Shown in pieces: positions 41,281 to 64,000 of a stretch of DNA of 64,000 nt. Numbering within the stretch: the first letter of the stretch is position 1; the number at the start of each line of letters is the position of its first letter. The DNA lies in contig NC_003284.9 of assembly GCF_000002985.6 (NCBI RefSeq), positions 4,278,001 through 4,342,000 on the forward strand. Reading direction: 5' to 3'. The translations under genes were made by a program, and so were the position numbers. The notes beneath the pieces were generated by a model, which worked only from the letters and a program-made list of their open reading frames with translations, was not told the origin of the DNA and made no database searches. This stretch comes from Caenorhabditis elegans (Eukaryota; Nematoda; Chromadorea; Rhabditida; Rhabditidae).

Positions 41281-42862
41281 ACCAGAGATTCCGTGTGCAA
41301 GACGTCTTTTGATATGAATATTCGATTTTGCGACGTGCCGCGCCTGTTATGGGAGTTCAATTTCCCTTTCTGCCCCCCTTTTCCCGTCCTTTCCTAACTT
41401 TCTAGTGGGCAAGGTGAATCTTTTCGAGACCATCCTTTCTTGTCACCTCGCACTTCCTCGTGTAGTGTAGTATGTGTAAAAAATCTGATTAGCACTCGCA
41501 CAAACCTCTCACTCATCGTACCGAATATTCTTTTCCCCCGAAACCACTAGGTCCCTAAGCCACTCTTCCAATCCTATTTTGGGGAGGAAGAGTAGAGCGT
41601 GCATTTTCTTTTTATTTGCAACAACTGCCTCTTGTTCTATTCGCAAAAATTTGCTTACTATTTCAAACATTTGTCTTCACCCCCCCCCCTCTTTAATGTT
41701 CACAAATTACGCTAATCAACCTTTTCCTAGGCGATTTAAGCCATCTCTCTCTCCGCTTCATTTAATTTCTCTCTCCAGGCGCCCCATTTTGCTCTTGAAA
41801 CGAACCCCCTCTCTCTTTATTTTTCCTCCCATCCTTTTTTGACCATAAAGCTCCAAATTGACTCTTCCTCCCGTTTCTTCATTATTCATTCGGTCTCGTC
41901 TAATTAAAATACGCTTTAATAGTTTGATTCTTTGGAGTCTTATATCACTTTGTACTTTTCCCGCCCAACATTCCACAAAAATACCTAAACGGTCTTACGT
42001 ATCAAGACCACAAAATCACGTCGTTTGCCATGACGTGAGAGCGTCTCTCAAGAGCCCCCTGAACAAAGAAATCAGAAATTCGGAAGTGTGAGCCTTCTGT
42101 GGAGTGATGTTGACATCTTTTCTGAATATGAAATATTCGGCTCACTCCAATTTATTTAGTTTAGTCTCAAACTAAAACTATTTTTTTTTGTTTTTGTTGA
42201 TTTTGTGTCTATCCTTGTTTTTCTCACTTACCCCTAGATCAGAGACCTCAGCTCAGTTTTTTCTAGAAAATAGTGTTATTGTTATTATCAAATTTATCAA
42301 ATGAGAACTTTTTCATCAGCTCAAGAACTTCATATTACGCTCAACCTACAAAAATAGGGATTACCTTTGATTTTTCCCATGAACTTTCGTATTGGAAAAA
42401 TTCTGTGGAAAATTGGTTTGAGAAACTCTTTAGCTTTTTTGAAATTTTGAAATACAAAATAGTGATTTTTCCCACTACATAATGGTTTTGAGATTTTGCT
42501 TAAAATAGCTCTGAAAAAACACATTTTCATTGAAAGACTTTTCAAAAAATTGTTAACAATTTATTTTGCCTGTTCAAAGTTTCAAAGAAAAAGGAACCAA
42601 TCAAATTTCGGTCCAAACTTTTTTTCTTGCCAAAGTTTAGCCCAACATTTGAGCACAGTTAAAATTCTCCTGTCAAACATTGGCATGAAGCTAGGGATAA
42701 ATCCTGAGAGACGTCCAATTTTTTCTAATAATGGAAAAAGTGATTTTCCGTTTGACAAATTGAAAAACTGAAGAGCTTATTTATGTCATTTTTTTTTAAT
42801 TCGGAAGGACAATAAAAACTTTGATAATTCATCAAAATTCACTGCTTCCAGGCTTTAAACTG

Positions 42863-45800
42863 ATGAACGAATCGGAAATCGCGGCCGCGGTGGCGGCGAT
42901 GGAGTTGGAGGACGAACTGCTCCAGCCTGAATGGGCATATCTGGTACTTTCCATTGTTCCTCTCGTCTGCATCTTGGGTAATCTTATGGTTGTGGCTGCT
43001 GTTTGGACAACCAAAAGCCTGCAAACACCTACGAATCACTTATTGGCACGTGAACATCTTAAGCCTTTTACAATTTATTCAGTTTTTTTCAGGTTTCCTT
43101 AGCAATGGCTGATTTAATAGTTGGCGCATTTGTAATGCCTTTCAGTATATATTTATCAGTAAGTATTTAAAACCTTAAACTATATACTCTACTTAAACAC
43201 TGTTTCAGGTAAACCGTCTTCACTGGCACTTGCCACTATTTGTCTGTTATTTCTATTGCGTCTTGGATGTTGCAGCAAGCACTTCGTCTATTATTCATCT
43301 CGTCTTGATAAGTATTGACAGGTATGTCAAAAAAAAGTGTGTACCCAACATAGTAGAAAGTTGCAGATTGGTCGCTGCCACAAAGCCTGCAGAGTACAAA
43401 ACAGTAAAACATAGGAAGAGGGTTTACTTGGCAATTGCTATTACATGGATATTCAGTATAGCTTTGTCTCTTCCATTAGGAACAGGATTCAACACTCGAA
43501 CCAGCTATTTTCTGGTTATAGAGCATCACTGTGGAATCTACAATCCAATTTATATGTTAGGAAGTAGCATTTTTGCATTCTACCTGCCATGTCTCATAAT
43601 GATATTTACATACGGTTATATATTTTATACACTTAGAAAACGTTTACGTGCTATTCAACTTCAGGTAGGACTTTTTTCAAATAAATTTAAAAGGATGGTC
43701 ATTTAATTTTAACTTTTTAGGAAATGGCTGGAGGTCAATTTCTTGGATTCGGAGCAGATGTCTCCAACATTACCACGTCAGCAATTCAGTCGGTCATTGG
43801 TTCGTTTTTTGCGCCCGAATTAATCATCTTTAACAGCGTAATTGTTTCTTTCCAGGCATTGCACCCAAGAATAGAAACATGATCACTTGGGAAAAGCCTC
43901 TTCTCAAAAAAATTGAAGAGACTGCAGCAGAACACGCGAGTTCATTGAACGACAGTGAACGAGAGCAGGTGAGAATCCATGGAAAGAAAACGGGAAAAAA
44001 ACGCTTCCAAATAATTCTCACTACTCTGATTTAAAATTCCAGATATCCTTCTTTCTACTTTTCACAAACTTTTATAGCAGCATATTGAGAGAAGAAGACG
44101 TTTCGCGCGGAATAGAAAATTATCGTTTTTATAGTTCTGCGAAAAAGAATGTGATATTAAGTGAGACTCGAATAGTAAGAGGAATTAAGAGATGGGAGAG
44201 AAGGGTAGAAATCGTCTAAAACGGATATTAAATGAGTCATTGGTAGACAATAGAAAATTGGTGTTTTTTTTAATGGAAATTTCAGAATAATCTAGTAATA
44301 ATATAAAATTGCGTTTAAAAAATTGTTTTAAAAAATTCAGAGTTAATTTGCAATATGCGCATTACATATTATCATTTTTTTTGTGAAAAAGTTATAAAAA
44401 TTGGTATTTATGAGTTTTGATCGTATCTCCGTCAGTTATAAAAACTAAAAACGTGTGGAACATTTTTGTATGTTTAGGCTTAGGAAAAATCTATCTCACG
44501 TTTAATTGAAAAAAGAGAACTTAATGAAAATTCAGTTTAATTTGATCCAACTTTTTGCACTGAAAATTTCAATTATAGTACTGTTTTCACACATAGGCGC
44601 TGAAGCAAAAGTAATACAAGTGTTTCAATAAATTCATAGTTCTCGTGATATAATTTATTATTTTTGAATTGCAATTTTACTAGAAAGTTTTATTTCGAAG
44701 GCATTTTATTTTCATATAGAACCCAGAACAAGATGTTATTTTATGATATATATATATATGAAAAACTTATACAGTGCGCGTGCGCTTGCTAAAGGTACCT
44801 TTCTTAATTTTGACAGTACAGTTTAGGGAGGGAGGGACACAAGATTTACAACAACTTGGTCATTTCCAAACTTTTCAATAGAGTCGTGTGTTATACGTTC
44901 TAAAATAATCCTATTTCTTAAGCTGCAAACCATCCTTGAAGCAGTTCATCCATCCTCTTCAGGAAGTCAGGAAAACACGACGATCGAGGTAGTGTCTTAC
45001 TTCTCAAGTTTTCTCTTCCCCTTCCTATTGTCAAGTATTTCCCCCTATTTTTGCAGGAAGACCCTGACCGACCTCCTTCTGTTCTGCTAGAGGCGGTCAC
45101 TTTAAAATGCGAGATCGACACCAGCGGACCCATTCTTGAACTGCCACGCCCTACGTACACAAAAAAGTGAGGACAAGAAAAGAAAAAAAAAGAAGAAGAA
45201 AAAAGAATTACAAACGAGATCTTGCAGCATGTCGCGGCGATTCTCCGATGCGGTCAATTCAATTTCGAGTCGCGGTAGAATGAAGTCGGTGTCTTTTGGA
45301 ACTTCACGAAAACGGCGACATTCACATCAGCCACAGGGAAATCGGGAAGTCGTGACGTCCGAAGAGTCCAAGAAATTGCACTCTTTGAAGCCGCCACTGG
45401 TTAGTTGCGAGGGTTAAAAAGAGAAAAATCTTTGCAAAGCCACAAGAAATTTCCGAACAAAAACCATGGTTTTTTTGTGATTTGGAAAACGTGAAGGGTC
45501 AATTTTTATAAGATGGCATGACTAGACAAATGAACATGTGCCAGGTGAAAATGTATTGTTAATTATAGAGCCAGGTGTGCGGCATCTGTTTTAAAATCCC
45601 GAGAAAAGTATATTTTTCAGCAAGTTAGAAAGCAAAAGTATATTTAGTATATCAGTGATATCAAAATGACCAAATATCCCAGTAAAGTTTTTCAGGAATA
45701 TTTGGAAAACTTTTTATTTACAGTCAAAATGTGGTGAAAAATGAGTGTTCACTTATCTTAATTTTGAAAGCCGACCATAAATATCCATAATATACCGTTT

Positions 45801-48800
45801 TTTAATGTTTCAATTGCAAATAAACTAGTGCATTTAACCAATTTAGGTATTCAGGTGATAGATTGGCCTAGACTTACAAGTTAGCAAAAAAATTACGAAA
45901 AAAGTAGCACTATTTATAATTGCCCAACATGTCCTAATAATATGGGAACTTACATTCAAATGGTCTAGATTTTTGAAAATTTCAGTAAAATATTTTAAAA
46001 ACTACCACAAATTTGGAAATTTGGAACGTTTTGTAATTCCTGGATTATCAAAGTAATCTACATATACAAATAAAGGAAACAGATTTAAAATATAAAACGT
46101 AAATACTGTGTACTGCATGTCATTTTAGCACTAAACCCTTTGACCTACTGTAGGAGACTAAAATTTGGTCATGCAACTCCACTATCTCAACACTTTGTTT
46201 TGGTTTTTATAATTTAAAAGCCTAGCTAATATCCTAATCTGTTTACCTGATATAATAGTTTTCAAATTTACCTTCTGGAAAACTTATATATTACTATACT
46301 GTCGAAACGGATGCCGCACATCCCTTTGCTGTAAAAATTGCCGAGTTCCTAACTCTTTGTCCGCAAAACTCACAAATAGTCTATGAGATAATGCATGTTC
46401 TCTTCTGAACCTTTCAAATCAACTATAGCTGGTAAGTACTCTTTCAATTAGTTCAGCTTCTTTTCTTTTCTCACCAACTACTATCTCGACTCCGACCTAT
46501 TTAGATCGGAACCAATTCTCTCCCGATCACTTCAACATATGAAAAAGACGAATTTGTGAGTTAGAGAGTATACTCGAAATAGTAACATTGATTTCCCCCA
46601 TTTTTCGACTTTCTTTTCTTCGCTATCGTGTGTACTTATCGCATGTAACATTTGCTGATTAGCTGACTGACCACGGCTTCAAGTAGCAAATTTATTTCTA
46701 GCACGTGAGGTTGCATAGATGAGTACCTTCGTTAGCTTTGCTTTCAGGAACTCAAAATTGAAAAGAGAAACATGTGGTGAAGCAGCGGTAGGTGAAACTC
46801 TTTTTCTAAGCTATTGCAAGATTTTCTCAAGATCACACGCCTAGTATGCAGGGTGAGAATGCCGGATGCATTGAAAATAAATGCAACAAGTTGCAGCTAT
46901 GATTAGCTTTTTTTAATGATTCGACTGCTTTCAGAATGGCTTTATATTGCACCAGCTCTTTGAGGGATCTTTGAATAATTTTTTTCAGGTTGAAAAGCGA
47001 AAGATGAGACGTTTATCCGAGATGATATCTGATTGGGAACGACCGTCAAGAAGTTCGATCAGTAACATGTATCTTTATGCGAGAAGAGAAAGCGTCTACA
47101 TTGCAAGGAAGAAGTTGGCCGGTCTGAAAGTAATAATTTGAGCTTTAAAAACAAACACACTATAAAGACTGAAAATAATCCGTTTTTAATACAAAACTGT
47201 TTAAAAAAATTTAAAAAAGATTCATACTTGTTGTTGTTCTAGAATGTTCATGGTTCAATTTAGATTAGCTCAAGTATGATTTTAAATATTTTTTGTTATA
47301 TCCAGATTGAAAATACGTAGAATATTCAAAGAAAGACATTGAAATTTGAATTACCTGCAAAATACGCATGTTTCAGCCACTTTTGGTAACTCAACGCTAA
47401 ATTTTCATAAAAATTTTCCATATCCTTTGAAACATCCGGAATCTAAAAAAAAACAAGAAAAAAACGGAAAATATTGGAACTATACCAAAATAAAATTACC
47501 GAATTTTCTTCAACTGTCCGATTTTCCAGGACTGGGCGCTGGACCTGTTAGCAAAACTGAAATCCAAGCAGGGAATGGCGATTCGTCGAGAGACTCGTGC
47601 AACCAAGTTGGTTGCAACTGTAATGGGTAACTGAAACTATTCTTTGACATTAAAACTAAACCAAATACATTGCAGTGGTTTTTCTCGTCTGCTGGCTTCC
47701 GTTTTTCACATTGAACATGATCAAAATTTACAAATTGATATTCAACGTTTGGTCAGCGGACCTCGAAATTTGGTTCCATTGGTTTACCGCACTGGGGTAT
47801 TTGAATTCGTCACTCAACTTTTTCATTTACTCAACAATCAATCCAGTAAGCATTTTTATATCAAATTTGATAGTAATTATAGAAATAATTATAATACATA
47901 ATTGGCTATATAATAAAAAAGTTTAGTCGAAAAAGATTATATTTTTAATTTTTCAAGTTCAATTTGCGTTGTATAAAACATTAATTCATGGAATTGAGAC
48001 AAGGTAAAACCGACAACGTTTTCCAAAATTTTGACATGTCTGTATTCCCTCTATAGGCATTGCGCCAGCTTAACTCAATTTGACAAGAAATAGTAAACCC
48101 GCTTAGCAAACTAAATATACTGAAAACTGTACTGTATAATCCATTCAACACCTCCTTTTTTCAGAAATTCCGTCATTCATTCCGCCGCTTACTTGGCTTC
48201 CGTCGATCTTCTCGACGTCAGAGAGAAAAATCGTGGATGTTACCGCCACGAGATAGCAGCAGGTGAGCCTCATTTATTCGTCCATAGCTTTTAAATGTTT
48301 CATAACAGAGGTCCTGCAAAATGTGGATGCGGTTTCCATAAAATCGTGAAAAGCCCTCTGCGCAAAACGAGCTCAGCTGGGTAAGTACGACTTTTTTGAC
48401 AGGTCACACATTTCTTCTAATAGAACACATTCTTGACATTCAGTTCTGACACTTCAAGTTCCGGTCAATCGTTCAGAAACAAAATATTCAAAAGGTGTTT
48501 GAAAGGATAATAATCATAATAATAGACAAGTGATAGTCCTTGCATGGGACCGAAACGGAAATTACTTTGTTTTCGAAATATGATGAAACCTCTTCTTTTT
48601 TCTGTTATACTCTATGTATTGGAATGATTATTTTTCTGAATTTTTCTAAATATTAAATATGCTTGAGCATGTTGAAACATTAGAAGAATACTTTATCAAG
48701 GCACGCTGGACTAAACGAATATTTTACAGACCAATGAACAACAGAAAAATTTCCATGCAAAAACCAGAAATCGTCATTGACGAAATTTCACCGAATCGAA

Positions 48801-49331
48801 TTTCAATCTCCGCCGGAGGAAACACAACTTTTAGGTAAGGATGGCTAATGTCTATATTTGGAGAATACAAAAAAAAACATCAAAAATTCGCAGATTTAGC
48901 ACATCCAGACCCCACCCGGTTTAGGTAGGACCTGAGTTGTTCAAGAACTCACAATGTTTTACTTATGTTGTGTTACTTACTGTGTTACTGTGTTGTGTTA
49001 CTTTTCTACAAAATAATAACTAGCTGATGTTAATTTCTAAATAAAAATTAATCGTTTAACTTATAATAAATGTGCTTCAATTTCAGGCGATCTTCGGATG
49101 ATTGTATTCGTAGATCATCTTCTGAAATAATCGGCGGTATCACTCTTCCATCTCAAAGTAGTAATGATAAACGAAGGTATGTATTTCCCTTCATCTTACA
49201 GATTGTGTTAACTACATGTTTGCAGAGGATCCGGTATGTCAAATAGTTCAGCATCTCTCCATATCCATGAAACGCGAATGACGTTCGAAGCAATGGTCAA
49301 CGATCAGGCTGATTGCGAAATTTTTGTTTAA
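42863..49331 (+). CDS. dop-6: D2-like biogenic-amine (dopamine-type) G-protein-coupled receptor
   Basis: Seventeen exons (first 42863-43045, last 49226-49331) give 687 aa with all phases consistent. TM1 is about 24-48 (GNLMVVAAVW). TM2 has SLAMADLIVGAFVMPF. TM3 has YCVLDVAASTSS with amine-binding D103. TM5 has the Ser pair GSSIFAFYLP, TM6 VFLVCWLPFF (CWLP 463-466) and TM7 LGYLNSSLNFFIY. Intracellular loop 3 is about 240 residues, as in D2-like receptors, and the C-tail is about 170. Oddities: spliced mRNA reads DRL instead of DRY; TM7 reads NFFIY instead of NPxxY; and intron 1 (43046-43092) has a GC donor. Exons 9-17 lie in the left arm of IR1 and are copied in reverse at 52078-54420. A TTCCAG acceptor 11 nt before the ATG may take SL1 or an upstream 5' exon. 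Amine-receptor identity is firm; the name dop-6 is from memory. Confidence 0.85.
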
Positions 49332-50106
49332 TTTTGTCCCCCCCCCCCCCCCCTCCAATTCCCGGTCACGTCTTGATCTCCTACCTATTACAACGAGTGT
49401 GTATGTATTTACAATTCTTCTTGCCACATTTTTTCTGTGGATCTCATTTTTTATAAAATTGAATTTTGTCGACTGTTTTTCCTTTTGAATAAATTATTCA
49501 GCAATTCTAACAATTTTTTTTGGAAACACAGTATAATATTCATCGAAACCATCCCTAAAATCACAAAGTTTGAGATCAAGCTTGAAAATCTATCTAAAGA
49601 AAAATTATGATTATTGTCCGTCAATCCGTGGAACTTTCGATAAATGAGGAGCTGCTGACGGTTCTGCTGTACGTGGCAATAATCGCTGAAAAACTTATTC
49701 CGGATATATTTTTTTAAAAGTGAACACCATATCTCTATCAGAATGACATGGAAAACATTTTTCAGGGTGTTAAATTGTCAAATTCAAAACTAAACCTACT
49801 AGTTTTAATTAATTAATTGAATTTTTTCCTCAAAATTTTATTACATTTTTTGATCTTATTTTTGTTCTATAAAATGTTTCGGGTTTTTTGAAAAGTGTGA
49901 CCAGAAAATTCAAAATGTTTTTTTTTTACTCTTTGTTCCATTGAATGGTTTTGGTCTTATTTTATATGGTTTTATTTAAATGTATTAATTTACCGTATGA
50001 ACAAGAATTTTTAAAAATTTGGTTCAAAATGTATAATATCTAATCCTGTTAACATCAAGATTGAGAAATCTATTTGAAAAATTTTCCAAAAAAATCGAAA
50101 ACTTAT
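46179..50106. repeat. IR1 left arm (3928 bp)
   Basis: Reverse-complement partner of 51303-55230; positions pair as x with 101409-x. The outer edge falls in GPCR intron 8, after the last shared bases gatagtgg (read on the other strand); the inner edge falls at cttat. The arm holds GPCR exons 9-17 and the last exon of the small minus-strand gene. All coding segments compared are identical between arms, and the C16/G16 tracts have equal length. Confidence 0.96.
49338..49353 (-). repeat. C16 tract (G16 on minus strand), just after the GPCR stop
   Basis: Sixteen C begin 7 nt after the GPCR stop codon, inside its 3' UTR and inside the IR1 left arm. The identical tract in the other arm reads as G16 at 52056-52071. 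Confidence 0.95.
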
Positions 50107-50873
50107 TCTTGCTACTTTATTTTTTGAATTAAAATTGGCGACCGACAACTTTGGCCATTTCTGGAATTGACCCGTTTTGGAAAAAAAATCAGTCATCTTT
50201 TTTGTATTCCGACAATCATTTTGTTTTAATTCACTAATTCAAATTTTAAGACACTTTGAGAATATTTTCGGCAATTGTCAATTCCGGCGATAATTAGCTT
50301 GAGGAAATATTTGGCAAATTCGGCAATTGCTGGTTTTTGCGGTTTTTTTTTTGATTTTTGGAAATTAATTATTGCCGCACACACCTAATTTGTATCAACC
50401 TAATAAATATATAATGGATTTAGAGTTCTGCTTTTTACAGCAAACTTCAAACACTCCTGTCCAGTCGGACTTAACAGAAGTGTTGTAATTGAATGTAGAG
50501 AATATAAAGAGTCAAATTGCGACACTAAAATTAAAAATTCACTGTCTACCTTTTCTGTAGATCGAGTGAGTCCTCTCTCATTCTCCAAAGTGGCGTTCAT
50601 CCGCGTTCTCTGAGTGCTTGGCGATGTTTCGGTAATATTTCTTTGACTTATTGATTCTTGTCCGACCCGATGTTCAGTCGATTGTTCATGTCTGCTTGTC
50701 ACGTGACCATCTTCAAACTGTTTCCAGAGTCCTGTAAATCAAATTGAAATTTTTTTAGCCCGTTAATAATTTGTGTTTTAGTAAACCATACCTGGAACAT
50801 ATTGTTTTCCAAGCATTGGAATATCGGTTAGGTGTGACAAAACATCAAAGCGAGTTTTATCGTAACTGTTCAT
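49611..50873 (-). CDS. Small unknown protein, gene straddling the IR1 boundary
   Basis: Three minus-strand exons, 50792-50873 (ATG at 50873), 50550-50731 and 49611-49685, join in frame to 112 aa. The protein is hydrophilic: it starts MNSYDKTRFDVLSHLTDIPM, has a GLWKQFEDGHV stretch, a Ser/Thr/Arg/Glu-rich centre and the end VPRIDGQ. I see no signal peptide, membrane segment or known domain. Exons 1 and 2 lie in the unique IR1 spacer while exon 3 lies in the left arm, on the strand opposite and 280 bp beyond the GPCR stop, so the two genes converge. A TTTTCAG acceptor about 40 nt upstream of the ATG could take a spliced leader. The consistent phases and good splice sites are the only support; it could still be a chance model. 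Confidence 0.55.
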
Positions 50874-51723
50874 TTGGTAATCACAAAGTAGCTATCGTTT
50901 AACAGAGCTGTATACCCTGAAAAAATACAAAGGTTGTGAGTAAGTAAGCAAACTTTGCTATTTGTTGAGAACGCGAGAAGGGCAAGTGAAAGTTGGTGAA
51001 TAGTGAAAACGAATGTTTTGGAAAATAGGAATAATAGCATACTGCATTTATCATTAGATCAACTGGCAACAATTTCTATCTTCTGCTTTGCAACGGGCAC
51101 ATTTGTTCACTCTCAACCACTTTTATCATGAAATGTTTCTCTTTTTTCGCTTGAGTTACATCTTTGAAGAAATATATGAGAAGATGCAGCATGGATAGCA
51201 ATTTGTTTAACATTTTTTGAAATGTGAAGCTTTTGAAATGAGATTCAGATTTTCGGCTGACGCAGCATATGCCACACAAGAATGAGTAAAGAAATAATGC
51301 AGATAAGTTTTCGATTTTTTTGGAAAATTTTTCAAATAGATTTCTCAATCTTGATGTTAACAGGATTAGATATTATACATTTTGAACCAAATTTTTAAAA
51401 ATTCTTGTTCATACGGTAAATTAATACATTTAAATAAAACCATATAAAATAAGACCAAAACCATTCAATGGAACAAAGAGTAAAAAAAAAACATTTTGAA
51501 TTTTCTGGTCACACTTTTCAAAAAACCCGAAACATTTTATAGAACAAAAATAAGATCAAAAAATGTAATAAAATTTTGAGGAAAAAATTCAATTAATTAA
51601 TTAAAACTAGTAGGTTTAGTTTTGAATTTGACAATTTAACACCCTGAAAAATGTTTTCCATGTCATTCTGATAGAGATATGGTGTTCACTTTTAAAAAAA
51701 TATATCCGGAATAAGTTTTTCAG

Positions 51724-51798
51724 CGATTATTGCCACGTACAGCAGAACCGTCAGCAGCTCCTCATTTATCGAAAGTTCCACGGATTGACGGACAATAA
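51724..51798 (+). pseudogene. Orphan copy of the small gene's last exon
   Basis: Mirror image of 49611-49685 in the right arm of IR1. It carries the acceptor and 25 codons ending in a stop, but upstream exons 1 and 2 are absent because they belong to the single-copy spacer on the other strand. It cannot be joined to the parent gene's exons in cis. Confidence 0.7.
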
Positions 51799-52055
51799 TC
51801 ATAATTTTTCTTTAGATAGATTTTCAAGCTTGATCTCAAACTTTGTGATTTTAGGGATGGTTTCGATGAATATTATACTGTGTTTCCAAAAAAAATTGTT
51901 AGAATTGCTGAATAATTTATTCAAAAGGAAAAACAGTCGACAAAATTCAATTTTATAAAAAATGAGATCCACAGAAAAAATGTGGCAAGAAGAATTGTAA
52001 ATACATACACACTCGTTGTAATAGGTAGGAGATCAAGACGTGACCGGGAATTGGA

Positions 52056-52071
52056 GGGGGGGGGGGGGGGG
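52056..52071 (+). repeat. G16 tract, IR1 partner of the C16 tract
   Basis: Sixteen G at the mirror position of 49338-49353. Equal length in both arms of so unstable a tract suggests a very young duplication or continuing gene conversion. Confidence 0.95.
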
Positions 52072-52077
52072 ACAAAA

Positions 52078-54420
52078 TTAAACAAAAATTTCGCAATCAG
52101 CCTGATCGTTGACCATTGCTTCGAACGTCATTCGCGTTTCATGGATATGGAGAGATGCTGAACTATTTGACATACCGGATCCTCTGCAAACATGTAGTTA
52201 ACACAATCTGTAAGATGAAGGGAAATACATACCTTCGTTTATCATTACTACTTTGAGATGGAAGAGTGATACCGCCGATTATTTCAGAAGATGATCTACG
52301 AATACAATCATCCGAAGATCGCCTGAAATTGAAGCACATTTATTATAAGTTAAACGATTAATTTTTATTTAGAAATTAACATCAGCTAGTTATTATTTTG
52401 TAGAAAAGTAACACAACACAGTAACACAGTAAGTAACACAACATAAGTAAAACATTGTGAGTTCTTGAACAACTCAGGTCCTACCTAAACCGGGTGGGGT
52501 CTGGATGTGCTAAATCTGCGAATTTTTGATGTTTTTTTTTGTATTCTCCAAATATAGACATTAGCCATCCTTACCTAAAAGTTGTGTTTCCTCCGGCGGA
52601 GATTGAAATTCGATTCGGTGAAATTTCGTCAATGACGATTTCTGGTTTTTGCATGGAAATTTTTCTGTTGTTCATTGGTCTGTAAAATATTCGTTTAGTC
52701 CAGCGTGCCTTGATAAAGTATTCTTCTAATGTTTCAACATGCTCAAGCATATTTAATATTTAGAAAAATTCAGAAAAATAATCATTCCAATACATAGAGT
52801 ATAACAGAAAAAAGAAGAGGTTTCATCATATTTCGAAAACAAAGTAATTTCCGTTTCGGTCCCATGCAAGGACTATCACTTGTCTATTATTATGATTATT
52901 ATCCTTTCAAACACCTTTTGAATATTTTGTTTCTGAACGATTGACCGGAACTTGAAGTGTCAGAACTGAATGTCAAGAATGTGTTCTATTAGAAGAAATG
53001 TGTGACCTGTCAAAAAAGTCGTACTTACCCAGCTGAGCTCGTTTTGCGCAGAGGGCTTTTCACGATTTTATGGAAACCGCATCCACATTTTGCAGGACCT
53101 CTGTTATGAAACATTTAAAAGCTATGGACGAATAAATGAGGCTCACCTGCTGCTATCTCGTGGCGGTAACATCCACGATTTTTCTCTCTGACGTCGAGAA
53201 GATCGACGGAAGCCAAGTAAGCGGCGGAATGAATGACGGAATTTCTGAAAAAAGGAGGTGTTGAATGGATTATACAGTACAGTTTTCAGTATATTTAGTT
53301 TGCTAAGCGGGTTTACTATTTCTTGTCAAATTGAGTTAAGCTGGCGCAATGCCTATAGAGGGAATACAGACATGTCAAAATTTTGGAAAACGTTGTCGGT
53401 TTTACCTTGTCTCAATTCCATGAATTAATGTTTTATACAACGCAAATTGAACTTGAAAAATTAAAAATATAATCTTTTTCGACTAAACTTTTTTATTATA
53501 TAGCCAATTATGTATTATAATTATTTCTATAATTACTATCAAATTTGATATAAAAATGCTTACTGGATTGATTGTTGAGTAAATGAAAAAGTTGAGTGAC
53601 GAATTCAAATACCCCAGTGCGGTAAACCAATGGAACCAAATTTCGAGGTCCGCTGACCAAACGTTGAATATCAATTTGTAAATTTTGATCATGTTCAATG
53701 TGAAAAACGGAAGCCAGCAGACGAGAAAAACCACTGCAATGTATTTGGTTTAGTTTTAATGTCAAAGAATAGTTTCAGTTACCCATTACAGTTGCAACCA
53801 ACTTGGTTGCACGAGTCTCTCGACGAATCGCCATTCCCTGCTTGGATTTCAGTTTTGCTAACAGGTCCAGCGCCCAGTCCTGGAAAATCGGACAGTTGAA
53901 GAAAATTCGGTAATTTTATTTTGGTATAGTTCCAATATTTTCCGTTTTTTTCTTGTTTTTTTTTAGATTCCGGATGTTTCAAAGGATATGGAAAATTTTT
54001 ATGAAAATTTAGCGTTGAGTTACCAAAAGTGGCTGAAACATGCGTATTTTGCAGGTAATTCAAATTTCAATGTCTTTCTTTGAATATTCTACGTATTTTC
54101 AATCTGGATATAACAAAAAATATTTAAAATCATACTTGAGCTAATCTAAATTGAACCATGAACATTCTAGAACAACAACAAGTATGAATCTTTTTTAAAT
54201 TTTTTTAAACAGTTTTGTATTAAAAACGGATTATTTTCAGTCTTTATAGTGTGTTTGTTTTTAAAGCTCAAATTATTACTTTCAGACCGGCCAACTTCTT
54301 CCTTGCAATGTAGACGCTTTCTCTTCTCGCATAAAGATACATGTTACTGATCGAACTTCTTGACGGTCGTTCCCAATCAGATATCATCTCGGATAAACGT
54401 CTCATCTTTCGCTTTTCAAC
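52078..54420 (-). pseudogene. Truncated inverted copy of the GPCR gene (exons 9-17)
   Basis: Reverse-oriented copy of GPCR exons 9-17, with every splice site and the stop at 52078 intact. It encodes the end of intracellular loop 3, TM6 (CWLP), TM7 (NFFIY) and the whole C-tail, about 320 codons, but exons 1-8 (TM1-TM5, ligand Asp, DRY region) are missing. The upstream neighbour on the same strand is the 3' end of cst-2. If transcribed, it would need readthrough from cst-2 or a new promoter. It could not form a receptor alone; a two-helix fragment or a pseudogene is expected. No disabling mutation is seen, which fits recent origin. Confidence 0.85.
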
Positions 54421-55191
54421 CTGAAAAAAATTATTCAAAGATCCCTCAAAGAGCTGGTGCAATATAAAGCCATTCTGAAAGCAGTCGAATCATTAAAAAA
54501 AGCTAATCATAGCTGCAACTTGTTGCATTTATTTTCAATGCATCCGGCATTCTCACCCTGCATACTAGGCGTGTGATCTTGAGAAAATCTTGCAATAGCT
54601 TAGAAAAAGAGTTTCACCTACCGCTGCTTCACCACATGTTTCTCTTTTCAATTTTGAGTTCCTGAAAGCAAAGCTAACGAAGGTACTCATCTATGCAACC
54701 TCACGTGCTAGAAATAAATTTGCTACTTGAAGCCGTGGTCAGTCAGCTAATCAGCAAATGTTACATGCGATAAGTACACACGATAGCGAAGAAAAGAAAG
54801 TCGAAAAATGGGGGAAATCAATGTTACTATTTCGAGTATACTCTCTAACTCACAAATTCGTCTTTTTCATATGTTGAAGTGATCGGGAGAGAATTGGTTC
54901 CGATCTAAATAGGTCGGAGTCGAGATAGTAGTTGGTGAGAAAAGAAAAGAAGCTGAACTAATTGAAAGAGTACTTACCAGCTATAGTTGATTTGAAAGGT
55001 TCAGAAGAGAACATGCATTATCTCATAGACTATTTGTGAGTTTTGCGGACAAAGAGTTAGGAACTCGGCAATTTTTACAGCAAAGGGATGTGCGGCATCC
55101 GTTTCGACAGTATAGTAATATATAAGTTTTCCAGAAGGTAAATTTGAAAACTATTATATCAGGTAAACAGATTAGGATATTAGCTAGGCTT

Positions 55192-58034
55192 TTAAATTAT
55201 AAAAACCAAAACAAAGTGTTGAGATAGTGGATGAAAGTTTGGACCGGTTCCATCTTGAGCAAACGGTTGGTTTTTTGAAGGGTCTGAAGCGCTTGCGGTG
55301 TGACCCGGTGGTTGAACGCGCGGTGAGTTGCCATTTTTCGACGAGCCTGGAACTATATCGGTGAATGCAATTTAACGCTCATGAAAAAACGAACTATATG
55401 CCGATTTAGGAATTTCTCCACCAATTCTCAAGCTTTCCATTTGACTTCGAAGACTTTGAGCAGTGACATAGTTGTCTGAAATTGTGAGTTCTATTTCACT
55501 AGGTAATTTTGTAATTTCTCCCTGTGTCCTGCTTCACGTTACTACTAAATATCGAGCTACAAAGTAGTGCAAATTAGGTGCGTGAGTTTTGCACTTTCCC
55601 ACGACACATATGATCAAATTACATATTCAAAACTATCATAATACCTTTGTGTTGAACTAACGTAGACTCTCCACCGTCAATCATAGTGGACATTCCCTCG
55701 CTTAGCAACGTTGCATCATTTCCGCTGCTTGCTGCCTGAAAAAACAATCAAATTTTCGTTTTCTAATGAAATTTTTTGTCAACCATTGGTGCTTGTCCTA
55801 GTATAGCTTTTTCTTGAGCATCCTGGATCATCAACTGCATAATATCGCAACCTGGTGCATTTTTGATGAATGTGTGCTGAAAAATATCTATGAAGTGAGC
55901 AATGTTCACAAACTGTGTATCATTTGTTTTTCAGCAGTATTAGTAATACTATGACAGAAAACAACAAAAAAGTGTATAAAAATAGTAGAAAATTCTATGT
56001 AAAAAGTTAAAAAATTACTCCGAAGGGGTTGTCAAATTATAAGAAATCTTCTATTTTCGGTTGAGAGTAGTTGTAGGAAATATGAAAATTTGGCCCCGTC
56101 TATATCTTGGCAGTTTTTAAATGAGTTGCCACGTAGTGGCAGCAAGTGGGAAAGAACGCTCCTCGGCATTTAAAGGCAACTTCCTGCCAACTTTTGGCAA
56201 CTTTCTGCCAAACTTTTGCACATTCCTGCCAACATTTAGATGTTTTTTCCCACTTACTGCCACTACGTGGCAACTTCCTGCCAACAACTCGGCAACTTCC
56301 TGCCAGCAATTTGGCAACTTATTTTAGTGGCACTAAATAAGTTGTCAAAGTGTGGCAGGAAGTTGCCTCTGAATACCGAGTAGAGAATTATGTTGAGTTC
56401 TAGCGTTTTTTGGATTGTTTGTTTTTATAGATTTCAAGCTTTTATCGACATCATTTTGTAGTCAAACGTGAAAGTTTATCGCTTTTCTCGCATTTTTTGC
56501 TGACATGGACATATTTTCAGCCGATTAGAACACAAGTTTAGCTGACTACCGACTAGAAACTTTAAAAAATAGAAAAAAGAAATACTACATGATTGAAAAT
56601 TAATTTCTAGTCCCTGCGACAAAAAAAAGTTGTCGAAATTTTGAATTTTAGGTGGATGTACCTTTTTTCACAGTTTTAACAAATATAACGAATATTTGAG
56701 AATTTCAATATTTTTTGGATAAATCTTATTGGGAAATTTCTTTTTTTTTAAGCCATACGTACCTCACACAATCGGAGTGCCGTTTTTCTTTCTTCTGGCT
56801 TTTTAATTAAACAGCTTCTTATGAAATCATTGAACTCGGACGACCATTCTTCAGGTTTTTTAAACGTAGGTGGTGGTTTAGTTGGAATCATGAAGATTGC
56901 TCGCATCGGATGAATATCTGAATAAGGAGGCCGTCCCTCTGCCATTTCGATAGCTGTTATTCCCAGTGACCATATATCAGCTTTTGTGTCATATCCGATT
57001 TCTTCGATAACTTCAGGGGCCATCCAGAATGGCGTTCCAATGACTGTATTTCTTTTTGCCATTGTATCAGTCAACTGTCCAGCGACACCGAAATCCGCAA
57101 GCTTTGCAATTCCATCGGTATTGAGTAGAATGTTTCCAGCCTGAAAATACAGTTTTTTTTTCAAAAAAAAACAGTTTCTAACCTTTATATCTCTATGAAT
57201 CTTCTTCAAGTCATGCAAATATTGCAATCCCTTGAGAGTATCGCGCAAAACTGCACTGATTTCTTGTTCGGATAACGGTTTCCGCCTGGCACGCATTATA
57301 TCGGAGATCGACCCAGCTCCACAGTATTCCATCACAATCTTTAAATTAGTTTTTTTGTTAGTCCAGTTTTCTTCTTGATTTTCGACTAGGGGTAGGGAAT
57401 AAAATCTTTGAATTTCAATTGGCATGCATTTGAATGAATACTTTTGAATGTTATTTCCACTTTAAGCTACATTTTTTTCTGTGGAAAAATCAGAACTTTA
57501 CTGTTTTTAACTCTAATTCACAAAACGAATATAATTTTTGTTCAATTTCTTTTATTTAGTCCCACTTGGGCACAGCATTAAAATCTTAAAATTTATCTAA
57601 ACAATCTCACCCATAGATCCGAATGTTTGAAATACGATCCATAGTATTTGACAACATATTTACTTTTACATTGTTGCATTATACTGATTTCCTTGATAAT
57701 TTCTTGAAGATCAGTATCCACTGGCACTTTTTTGATGGCTAACACATGACCTGACTCTCTGTGAATTGCCTTATGTACGCTTCCATATGATCTGAAAATT
57801 TGGAATTTTTCAATCCGATAGAATTGAAATAACAAACCCTTCGCCCAGCTTTCCAACAATGTCGAAAACTTCTTCTGGTGGTTTGTTAAGCGCCGACGAA
57901 TCCAATTTAAATCCATCGCTAAAACAAAAGAGAATGTTTATTTTGGAAGAGTAACTCTTTTTTTTTGTTTTGTGTCTGACAAACCTTGAGCCCTCTTCCG
58001 AATTCCGCCGCGAGCTGTCTGTAGACGGTGGCAT
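55192..58034 (-). CDS. cst-2: MST/Hippo-type Ste20 kinase, copy with replaced C-terminus
   Basis: Nine minus-strand exons: 57985-58034, 57838-57918, 57611-57791, 57183-57338, 56763-57140, 55784-55876, 55645-55735, 55395-55475 and 55192-55346, giving 421 aa. The kinase domain covers about 34-285: GKLGEGSYGSV loop, Lys64 in LAIKKV, HRDIKAGN (152-159), DFG (172-174), activation loop KRNTVIGTPFWMAPE with the Thr phosphorylated in MST kinases. This is the GCK-II/MST (Hippo) family, which phosphorylates Warts/LATS- or NDR-type kinases. A regulatory linker follows. The last 12 residues (PLSQHFVLVFII) and the stop lie in the IR1 right arm (55192-55230), so the protein ends in antisense GPCR intron sequence and lacks the SARAH dimerisation domain expected of MST kinases. 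A TTTCAG acceptor 10 nt before the ATG suggests SL1. The assignment of the names cst-2 (left) and cst-1 (right) is from memory. Confidence 0.9.
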
Positions 58035-59720
58035 CGGGAGGACGCTGAAATTAATGAAATTAACTTTGCTGAAATTTAAAAGTGGAGTAACGTCAGTGCT
58101 GAAATTGCTCAAAAACATGCATGCGGCACCACAATAATCAAATATTTTAGCAAAAAGTTTCTGAAAGATGTTCTAAATTTTATCTGATTTTTTTTTGAAA
58201 ATTGAAAATAAACTCAGTTTTTGCCAATTGTTGGACTTTTTGAAAGTCGTCCTTTCAAAAACTGTTCAGCATTTTTATTTGTTTAATATTTAGTCATTTT
58301 GACACCATAAGAGTAGTTTTAAACAATTTTCCAACTTGCGCTACTCCACCTTTAACTGTGTACAAGTTGAAGGATTTATAAAAAAGTGTTGTAAGATCTT
58401 GTGTGAGTATAGGAATGAACACCCAATGAGATATAAGTAAGATGAAGAGCAGATGTTGTCCGTCCGACCGACGAGAACTATGGGGCAAGAAAATCGAAGA
58501 AAGAAGAAGAAAGAAGAAGAAGAAGATAAAACCTATCCTTGAGGACACATTAGTCGCATGTTTCTCTGCGTTCTCTTGGTTGCACATGCACTCTGCTTGT
58601 TCAATTAGAACGTCAACAGTGCATGTATGGTCATATTCTGAAGGGAGGCGAGAAGAGTGAGAAGAGAAAGACAGGCGAATCGATTTGGACGTCGTTTTGA
58701 AAGCGAAAAGACGTCTGCGGGGTTCCACCCATGTGGCCCCGATGGCCCGAAGAATGAATAATTGACTACGGCAATTGTCTTTTGGAAAAAAAAGTAATCC
58801 GACAAAGTCCAACGTTTTTAGATTAAGATTTCATTGGTAAAATGGTTGAAAAAGCCGAGAAAAACTAATTAATAAATTTTATAATTTATGAAATCTTTGA
58901 GATAGACCTGAGCATATTTTAAAACAATACAAATTTAGAAGAACCTTATTTTTCATGAAAGAGATTGAAGTATCATGATTTTCAATTCTATTTCGCAATG
59001 TTAGCATTTCATTTAAGATTGAAATATCCTTTTTGAAAGTGTGAGAATTAAATATTCCCATTGAAACTATCAAACTATCAAAGACCAGAGAACAACTCAA
59101 AAACAGTACTCTATTTCAGATAAGTTGTACCGTGATAAAAAAAAAGAAGTTAATATAACCGACCGCAGGCGCTACATTCGACGAGCATTCGTAATGCCCT
59201 CGGCTCACTCTACGTTATTTGAGCAGTGTGTGGTCGAGGCGAAAGGGGGAAAAGGACGGGAAAGAGTGCGAAGTGTGTACTGCGCTCGTTTCATAAGACT
59301 TGACCCTTCACACGTCAGGATGTTTGAATGCGGAATATCGTATTGCTAACTGTGTCCTTCCTGGTGCTGTTTTGCGGTACTGTTTTATTATGAGAGTTGT
59401 TGGGTAGTCATCACCTGATTCACGTATGTTTACTATCTTTACTTGTCAGTAGACTTTATTTGTTATGGTGCATAGTAGTTGATTGCTTTTTGTCAGTTTG
59501 GACAATTATTCTAGTTGATTTTATAAAGCATGTTTCATCCATTTTTTCAAGCAAAGAGATGTCATAAATTCAAAAACAATTTCCAAGTTATTCTTTAATT
59601 TCAATCTATTTAACTTTAAAGAACTGTTAATTGATTTTTCAAAAATATATACACCCATAATATGAAAAAGTATTTTCAACTATCAATAAACACCGAGAAA
59701 AGCGGAATATCAAAATTTTT
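55678..59720. repeat. IR2 left arm (visible part at least 4043 bp)
   Basis: Reverse-complement partner of 59958-64000; positions pair as x with 119678-x. The inner edge is at caaaattttt. The outer edge cannot be seen because the partner runs off the window; it may extend to 55231, where IR1 begins. The arm holds cst-2 exons 1-7 and its promoter. Confidence 0.96.
56124..56366. repeat. Palindromic GGCAACTTCCTGCC repeat in a cst-2 intron
   Basis: This segment of the intron between cst-2 exons 5 and 6 is a partial palindrome: gttgccacgtagtggcag at 56125 is answered by ctgccactacgtggcaac near 56270. Between and after these, ggcaacttcctgcc recurs several times in both orientations. It is a non-coding MITE-like or satellite-type repeat. 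Its mirror copy is at 63312-63554 in cst-1. Confidence 0.75.
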
Positions 59721-61643: not shown

Positions 61644-64000
61644 ATGCCACCGTCTACAGACAGCTCGCGGCGGAATTCGGAAGAGGGCTCAAGGTTTGTC
61701 AGACACAAAACAAAAAAAAAGAGTTACTCTTCCAAAATAAACATTCTCTTTTGTTTTAGCGATGGATTTAAATTGGATTCGTCGGCGCTTAACAAACCAC
61801 CAGAAGAAGTTTTCGACATTGTTGGAAAGCTGGGCGAAGGGTTTGTTATTTCAATTCTATCGGATTGAAAAATTCCAAATTTTCAGATCATATGGAAGCG
61901 TACATAAGGCAATTCACAGAGAGTCAGGTCATGTGTTAGCCATCAAAAAAGTGCCAGTGGATACTGATCTTCAAGAAATTATCAAGGAAATCAGTATAAT
62001 GCAACAATGTAAAAGTAAATATGTTGTCAAATACTATGGATCGTATTTCAAACATTCGGATCTATGGGTGAGATTGTTTAGATAAATTTTAAGATTTTAA
62101 TGCTGTGCCCAAGTGGGACTAAATAAAAGAAATTGAACAAAAATTATATTCGTTTTGTGAATTAGAGTTAAAAACAGTAAAGTTCTGATTTTTCCACAGA
62201 AAAAAATGTAGCTTAAAGTGGAAATAACATTCAAAAGTATTCATTCAAATGCATGCCAATTGAAATTCAAAGATTTTATTCCCTACCCCTAGTCGAAAAT
62301 CAAGAAGAAAACTGGACTAACAAAAAAACTAATTTAAAGATTGTGATGGAATACTGTGGAGCTGGGTCGATCTCCGATATAATGCGTGCCAGGCGGAAAC
62401 CGTTATCCGAACAAGAAATCAGTGCAGTTTTGCGCGATACTCTCAAGGGATTGCAATATTTGCATGACTTGAAGAAGATTCATAGAGATATAAAGGTTAG
62501 AAACTGTTTTTTTTTGAAAAAAAAACTGTATTTTCAGGCTGGAAACATTCTACTCAATACCGATGGAATTGCAAAGCTTGCGGATTTCGGTGTCGCTGGA
62601 CAGTTGACTGATACAATGGCAAAAAGAAATACAGTCATTGGAACGCCATTCTGGATGGCCCCTGAAGTTATCGAAGAAATCGGATATGACACAAAAGCTG
62701 ATATATGGTCACTGGGAATAACAGCTATCGAAATGGCAGAGGGACGGCCTCCTTATTCAGATATTCATCCGATGCGAGCAATCTTCATGATTCCAACTAA
62801 ACCACCACCTACGTTTAAAAAACCTGAAGAATGGTCGTCCGAGTTCAATGATTTCATAAGAAGCTGTTTAATTAAAAAGCCAGAAGAAAGAAAAACGGCA
62901 CTCCGATTGTGTGAGGTACGTATGGCTTAAAAAAAAAGAAATTTCCCAATAAGATTTATCCAAAAAATATTGAAATTCTCAAATATTCGTTATATTTGTT
63001 AAAACTGTGAAAAAAGGTACATCCACCTAAAATTCAAAATTTCGACAACTTTTTTTTGTCGCAGGGACTAGAAATTAATTTTCAATCATGTAGTATTTCT
63101 TTTTTCTATTTTTTAAAGTTTCTAGTCGGTAGTCAGCTAAACTTGTGTTCTAATCGGCTGAAAATATGTCCATGTCAGCAAAAAATGCGAGAAAAGCGAT
63201 AAACTTTCACGTTTGACTACAAAATGATGTCGATAAAAGCTTGAAATCTATAAAAACAAACAATCCAAAAAACGCTAGAACTCAACATAATTCTCTACTC
63301 GGTATTCAGAGGCAACTTCCTGCCACACTTTGACAACTTATTTAGTGCCACTAAAATAAGTTGCCAAATTGCTGGCAGGAAGTTGCCGAGTTGTTGGCAG
63401 GAAGTTGCCACGTAGTGGCAGTAAGTGGGAAAAAACATCTAAATGTTGGCAGGAATGTGCAAAAGTTTGGCAGAAAGTTGCCAAAAGTTGGCAGGAAGTT
63501 GCCTTTAAATGCCGAGGAGCGTTCTTTCCCACTTGCTGCCACTACGTGGCAACTCATTTAAAAACTGCCAAGATATAGACGGGGCCAAATTTTCATATTT
63601 CCTACAACTACTCTCAACCGAAAATAGAAGATTTCTTATAATTTGACAACCCCTTCGGAGTAATTTTTTAACTTTTTACATAGAATTTTCTACTATTTTT
63701 ATACACTTTTTTGTTGTTTTCTGTCATAGTATTACTAATACTGCTGAAAAACAAATGATACACAGTTTGTGAACATTGCTCACTTCATAGATATTTTTCA
63801 GCACACATTCATCAAAAATGCACCAGGTTGCGATATTATGCAGTTGATGATCCAGGATGCTCAAGAAAAAGCTATACTAGGACAAGCACCAATGGTTGAC
63901 AAAAAATTTCATTAGAAAACGAAAATTTGATTGTTTTTTCAGGCAGCAAGCAGCGGAAATGATGCAACGTTGCTAAGCGAGGGAATGTCCACTATGATTG
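61644..64000 (+). CDS. cst-1: MST/Hippo-type Ste20 kinase, 5' part (window edge)
   Basis: Plus-strand mirror of cst-2. Exons are 61644-61693, 61760-61840, 61887-62067, 62340-62495, 62538-62915, 63802-63894 and 63943 onward, cut at 64000. The first 282 residues contain the whole kinase domain, identical to cst-2. Exons 6 and 7 begin the linker. The 3' end, where a SARAH coiled coil is expected for a full MST kinase, lies to the right of the window. The acceptor of exon 4 is the unusual tttaaag. MST kinases in worms act in a Hippo-like pathway upstream of WTS-1 or SAX-1 type kinases; that role is family knowledge and is not read from this sequence. Confidence 0.9.
63312..63554. repeat. Palindromic repeat in cst-1 intron, IR2 partner
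   Basis: Mirror image of 56124-56366. It opens several reading frames of 60-70 codons on both strands, all rich in WQEVA- or NFLPT-type repeats. These are repeat translations, not genes. Confidence 0.75.

Follow-up and report, generated by a model that had tools for sequence, protein, structure and literature searches.

Chimeric gene duplicates in C. elegans have been described as pairs in which both paralogues carry unique coding sequence and in which the end unique to the derived copy can be traced to a genomic donor (Katju and Lynch; PMC3449122); in the first survey, 116 of 290 young pairs were scored as chimeric, a figure judged to be an overestimate. Tandem inversion/duplications have likewise been described in this species for rcan-1, where two complete and two truncated copies of the gene are present, and this event arose during the building of a panel of laboratory lines and was resolved into five inversion/duplications (PMC7058356). 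Among kinases, the nearest described proteins are human MST1/MST2 (STK4/STK3): the kinase domain of the CST proteins matches STK3/STK4 best and the SARAH domain of CST-1 matches STK3 best.

For cst-1 and cst-2 themselves, the text of Huynh et al. 2026 (PMC13147543, of which PMC12407797 appears to be the preprint) reports that CST-2 lacks SARAH and differs in its final 13 residues, that the shared exons and some upstream sequence are 100% identical in DNA, that both genes are "roughly equivalently expressed" and that the Caenorhabditis relatives examined have one, SARAH-bearing orthologue. The loss of SARAH and the 13-residue difference are, thus, already published, and the published number of differing residues agrees with our count. 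In PMC11520455, the pair is called a tandem duplication specific to C. elegans at X:4333057-4343700, an interval that falls on both cst genes. The functional studies address the two genes jointly: PMC13147543 describes a MosDEL and a CRISPR deletion, each of both genes, and a single RNAi clone was used against both in PMC5862515. With regard to activation of Warts/LATS, the published data likewise come from the double deletion. Moreover, C24A8.4 is listed in a table on gene expression in motor neurons of the embryo (PMC1079822), and arrays may not distinguish it from cst-1.

Figures and supplements aside, PMC13147543 contains no description of a compound palindrome, of the exact join or of a receptor intron as the source of the tail, and "palindrom" and "inverted" are absent from its main text. 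The terms cst-1, cst-2, dop-6, C24A8 and F14H12 are absent from the main text of the structural-variant paper PMC10634987, and our search found no literature joining cst-2 with CB4856. As far as the literature covered shows, the exact join, the sense orientation of the tail, its donor and the reading of the locus as the outcome of a single event are new.

The cst-2 locus shares with the chimeric duplicates of PMC3449122 the unique coding sequence in both copies and the genomic donor, here an intron at 46178-46217 on the plus strand. In contrast to these duplicates, the donor block at cst-2 has itself been duplicated alongside, giving rise to two abutting palindromes. Unlike the rcan-1 rearrangement, that at cst-2 is part of the reference genome and, unlike human MST1/MST2, CST-2 has no SARAH helix. 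Combining these comparisons with the anatomy described below, we consider it probable that cst-2 arose recently from cst-1 as a chimeric duplicate and encodes a SARAH-less kinase, which is redundant, weakly contributing or idle.

The window analysed is a stretch of 64,000 bases that fits X:4278001-4342000 of C. elegans, and positions beyond its end are given in extended coordinates (Table 1). The window alone shows palindrome I1 from 55678 up to 64000; with the flanking genome included, I1 extends from 55232 to 64446.

Table 1. Coordinates of the features of the cst-1/cst-2 locus.
Feature	Position	Strand	Remarks
cst-2 coding region	55192..58034	minus	9 exons, 421 aa; modelled from splice consensus and reading frame
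cst-2 exons 1-5	58034-57985, 57918-57838, 57791-57611, 57338-57183, 57140-56763	minus	
cst-2 exons 6-9	55876-55784, 55735-55645, 55475-55395, 55346-55192	minus	
cst-2 exon 9 (last)	55346-55192	minus	55346-55232 from I1 (common to cst-1 exon 9), 55231-55192 from I2
cst-2 stop codon TAA	55194-55192	minus	
TGTAAA, weak variant polyadenylation-like hexamer	55074..55079	minus	115 nt past first base of cst-2 stop
cst-1	61644-65512 (extended coordinates)	plus	12 exons, 495 aa; exons 1-6 in window
cst-1 exon 7	63943-64033	plus	crosses window end (64000)
cst-1 SARAH-coding exons	64949-65037, 65452-65512 (extended coordinates)	plus	also matched directly in genome
Palindrome I2, left arm	46178-50106		3929 nt
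Palindrome I2, loop	50107-51302		1196 nt
Palindrome I2, right arm	51303-55231		3929 nt, 0 mismatches to 46178-50106; contains 3' part of receptor gene, minus strand
Palindrome I1, left arm	55232-59720		4489 nt, 0 mismatches
Palindrome I1, loop	59721-59957		237 nt
Palindrome I1, right arm	59958-64446		extends beyond window end
Tail donor, receptor intron sequence	46178..46217	plus	copy encodes PLSQHFVLVFII and stop; frame 46089-46214
Receptor open frame (rhodopsin family), full-length left copy	43197..43703	plus	outside duplication; 7tm_1 E=9.5e-20
Receptor fragment, last transmembrane exon in duplicated arm	53564..53733	minus	mirror of 47676-47845:+; sub-cut-off 7tm_1 match

The models for cst-1 and cst-2 were built from splice consensus and open frame and not from cDNA; they are supported by an in-frame second acceptor at 64326 in cst-1, which corresponds to the alternative exon 9 start, differing by two codons, that the text of PMC13147543 mentions. 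CST-1 and CST-2 are identical through residue 408, and 87 residues are unique to CST-1 and 13 to CST-2. An earlier note on this DNA held that the last exon of cst-2 crosses the palindrome boundary in frame, and our model reproduces both ends of this exon exactly. The same note placed the join at 55230/55231, which is off by one base: base pairing of the arms shows that I2 and I1 abut between 55231 and 55232 in a blunt contact with zero overlap and zero added bases, at which 55231 has its mirror partner at 46178 and 55232 at 64446. I1 contributes 1226 nt to the cst-2 open reading frame and, therefore, a His codon straddles the join and takes its third base from I2, which in addition contains 12 full codons and the stop, as had been counted before. 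The last 13 residues of CST-2, HPLSQHFVLVFII, make use of the I2 arm, and the C-terminal tryptic peptide is NQPFAQDGTGPNFHPLSQHFVLVFII in CST-2 versus NQPFAQDGTGPNFQLGTSESSYK in CST-1. The 40 bases that close the coding region, followed by the 3' end, are specific to cst-2, and knowledge of the exact point of divergence makes single-gene tests of the function of a SARAH-less Hippo kinase possible. In addition, the join shows the locus to be part of a compound inverted duplication that also includes a receptor fragment and, in that way, bears on the origin of chimeric genes.

What exceeds chance at this locus is the perfect inverted repeats with arms of 3929 and 4489 nt, not the reading frame of the tail. 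Over both arm pairs of I1 and I2 there are 0 mismatches in 8418 nt, and the outer flanks of the arms diverge into different sequence on each side. Simulation of 200,000 joins to random positions on both strands of the window gave tails with a median length of 13 residues (50% had at most 13). The length of the CST-2 tail equals this median and, therefore, neither the in-frame join nor the exact number of 12 codons is meaningful, and the in-frame join does not indicate selection.

A run of 16 G at 52056-52071 and its mirror in 46178-50106 have equal length in the two I2 arms. Long homopolymer runs of this kind are expected to be unstable, and their equality, therefore, points to a very recent event, to conversion between the arms or to arms that were not separately resolved in the reference. 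If 2.7e-9 mutations occur per base and generation and gene conversion is absent, the lack of any difference limits the age of the duplication to approximately 66,000 generations (upper 95% bound); arm-to-arm conversion could make the duplication older. That the perfect arms are an artefact of a collapsed reference assembly, which would account for zero mismatches in both arm pairs including the 16-G run, appears very improbable given that the arms run out into different sequence at each outer side and that, according to PMC13147543, the locus has been deleted independently by MosDEL and by CRISPR. Part of the identity between the arms may stem from collapse in the assembly.

The tail had been proposed to be antisense to an intron of a G protein-coupled receptor gene. 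This orientation is wrong. The left copy of the receptor occupies the plus strand and the right I2 arm is the reverse complement of the left arm, which puts the receptor fragment of the right arm on the minus strand together with cst-2. The tail, therefore, reads in the sense direction of the receptor intron. The assignment of 46178-46217 to an intron depends on a receptor model read by hand. The shared strand also raises the scenario that read-through transcripts of cst-2 are in some cases spliced to the receptor fragment, generating a kinase-receptor fusion. A phase-0 donor-like site (55207) could pair with an acceptor at 54420, from which phase 0 stays open over 50 codons. However, the donor at 55207 is weak, a phase agreement is expected by chance in 1 of 3 cases and the published interval, which is an input range and not a stated gene end, stops near 55057 (PMC11520455); we consider such fusions highly unlikely. 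The TGTAAA hexamer lies 17 nt before 55057, the position that corresponds to the edge of this interval at X:4333057 and, down to 54500, the single other occurrence of any of the 11 hexamers sought is AATAAA at 54533.

The order of the segments is A-B-loop-B'-C'-loop-C-D with a blunt contact between B' and C'. We suggest that one rearrangement copied a block with one end inside cst-1 exon 9 and the other end inside the intron of the neighbouring receptor gene, that the two ends of the block were joined bluntly end to end, and that the copied block was left inverted between the originals, giving rise to the two abutting palindromes. The stub of cst exon 9 would, in this way, have come to lie ahead of receptor intron sequence that supplies 13 codons, the first of which is shared with exon 9, together with a stop and that probably also provides the 3' end of cst-2. 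That this was a single event, and the order of its steps, is what we infer from the anatomy. The loops differ in length (1196 versus 237 nt) and do not match each other (no similarity in BLAST at E<=1). Tandem duplication with one clean inversion afterwards is, therefore, not sufficient as the full origin, and either template switching or the loss of sequence at the inner ends is needed in addition. In a whole-genome search, the 1196-nt loop of I2 matched itself and no second copy was found. Alternatively, two separate foldback events made the two palindromes. Given that the arms abut exactly, this alternative is less economical and we favor the single rearrangement.

The earlier note also suggested that the cst-2 copy has lost SARAH and left it to a search of the right-hand copy past position 64000 whether that copy lacks it as well. 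Both points were settled by domain profile searches: residues 444-491 of CST-1 match the full length of the Mst1_SARAH profile (48 positions, E=1.3e-21), whereas CST-2 gave no Mst1_SARAH match at E<=0.01. Consistently, the SARAH stretch of CST-1 matches the solved SARAH domains of STK3, STK4 and fly hippo, with STK3 best. When the entire genome was searched in six frames, 2 of the 3 candidates scored matched Mst1_SARAH; both are in cst-1 exons and, thus, on the strand opposite to cst-2. Splicing of cst-2 in cis into a SARAH exon is, therefore, rejected; trans-splicing to a SARAH exon is possible. The corresponding search for Nore1-SARAH gave 1 match among 3 scored, in a stretch that includes one TGA on another contig (C2:11311305-11311406, L010), a location that rejects it as a target for cis-splicing of cst-2. 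This match suggests that a RASSF-type partner, possibly of CST-1, probably exists.

The Pkinase domain is complete in CST-2 (E=6.5e-69), and 122 of the 157 residues that separate the Pkinase and SARAH matches in CST-1 are kept. For CST-1, which is identical to CST-2 through residue 408, the 10 best solved-structure matches are STK3/STK4 among the best 60 of 169. By these profile and structure matches, CST-2 is an MST-type kinase by descent and an incomplete member of that group: its kinase domain is of the Ste20 type and falls in the MST1/2 group, and it has no SARAH domain.

With its kinase domain intact, most of the linker retained and the SARAH helix gone, CST-2 should be unable to associate via SARAH with CST-1 or with partners of the Salvador or RASSF type. 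Judged from the sequence, CST-2 is most likely either a redundant kinase with a weak contribution or an idle by-product. Of the two fates suggested in the earlier note, a dead-end duplicate is possible, and a constitutive monomer is a conjecture. The readings considered here overlap, and our degrees of confidence in them need not sum to one. SARAH dimerization normally promotes activating trans-autophosphorylation, which argues against a CST-2 that is deregulated, i.e. freed from SARAH partners, active or directed to different targets and retained for that reason. The complete kinase domain and the roughly equal expression of both genes reported in PMC13147543 are in favor of this alternative; however, the 0 differences in 8418 nt give no indication at the sequence level that the copy has been under selection, and the deletions in PMC13147543 remove both genes together. 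On balance, we regard deregulation as quite unlikely.

Alternatively, CST-2 barely accumulates, with its hydrophobic end of non-coding origin acting as a degradation signal, a scenario that overlaps with idleness. The last nine residues of the tail have a mean Kyte-Doolittle value of 2.23, which is reached by 2.4% of the 122,404 simulated tails with at least 10 residues, and PMC12817085, on human stop-loss extensions, cites reports in which hydrophobic C-terminal extensions favor BAG6-mediated degradation. The tail is short, however, and for the full 13 residues the value of 1.41 is reached by 6.3% of the same simulated tails and does not pass the 5% level. Moreover, the measure was picked after the tail had been seen, so that hydrophobicity is a lead and not a test. 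Among the papers listed, our search found no literature on read-through tails in worms. We regard degradation of CST-2 as possible but doubtful. The more specific scenario in which one recent blunt rearrangement, perhaps present in part of the species only, left a cst-2 that is transcribed like cst-1 and a protein that is destroyed via its hydrophobic intron-derived tail is unlikely in our estimation. If true, it would represent a natural case in which a newborn gene comes under surveillance of translated non-coding sequence. The redundant, weakly contributing or idle kinase is the reading that we prefer over these alternatives.

The best solved-structure matches of the receptor open frame are the serotonin 2C and dopamine D2 receptors, and the best 60 of 77 also contain other serotonin, dopamine, histamine and adrenergic receptors. 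These matches suggest that the neighbouring gene, which we take to be C24A8.1/dop-6, encodes a putative amine-type receptor. The same frame weakly matches UPF0182 (E=0.0027), below the cut-off of that family. In the left I2 arm, 47660-47923 on the plus strand matches 7tm_1 with E=5.4e-5 and 23.2 bits, under the cut-off of 30.5, and the receptor pieces 42833-43096, 46920-47138 and 47494-47631 gave no domain match. The minus strand of the right arm contains a 5'-truncated copy of the receptor gene, the 3' exons of which lie downstream of cst-2 in the same sense. By eye, a possible small gene with an ATG at 50873 is present on the minus strand of the I2 loop. Finally, the large intron 5 of cst-2 contains a short degenerate repeat (56175-56320 and its mirror), with GGCAACTT occurring five times and CTGCCA six times within 56120-56400.
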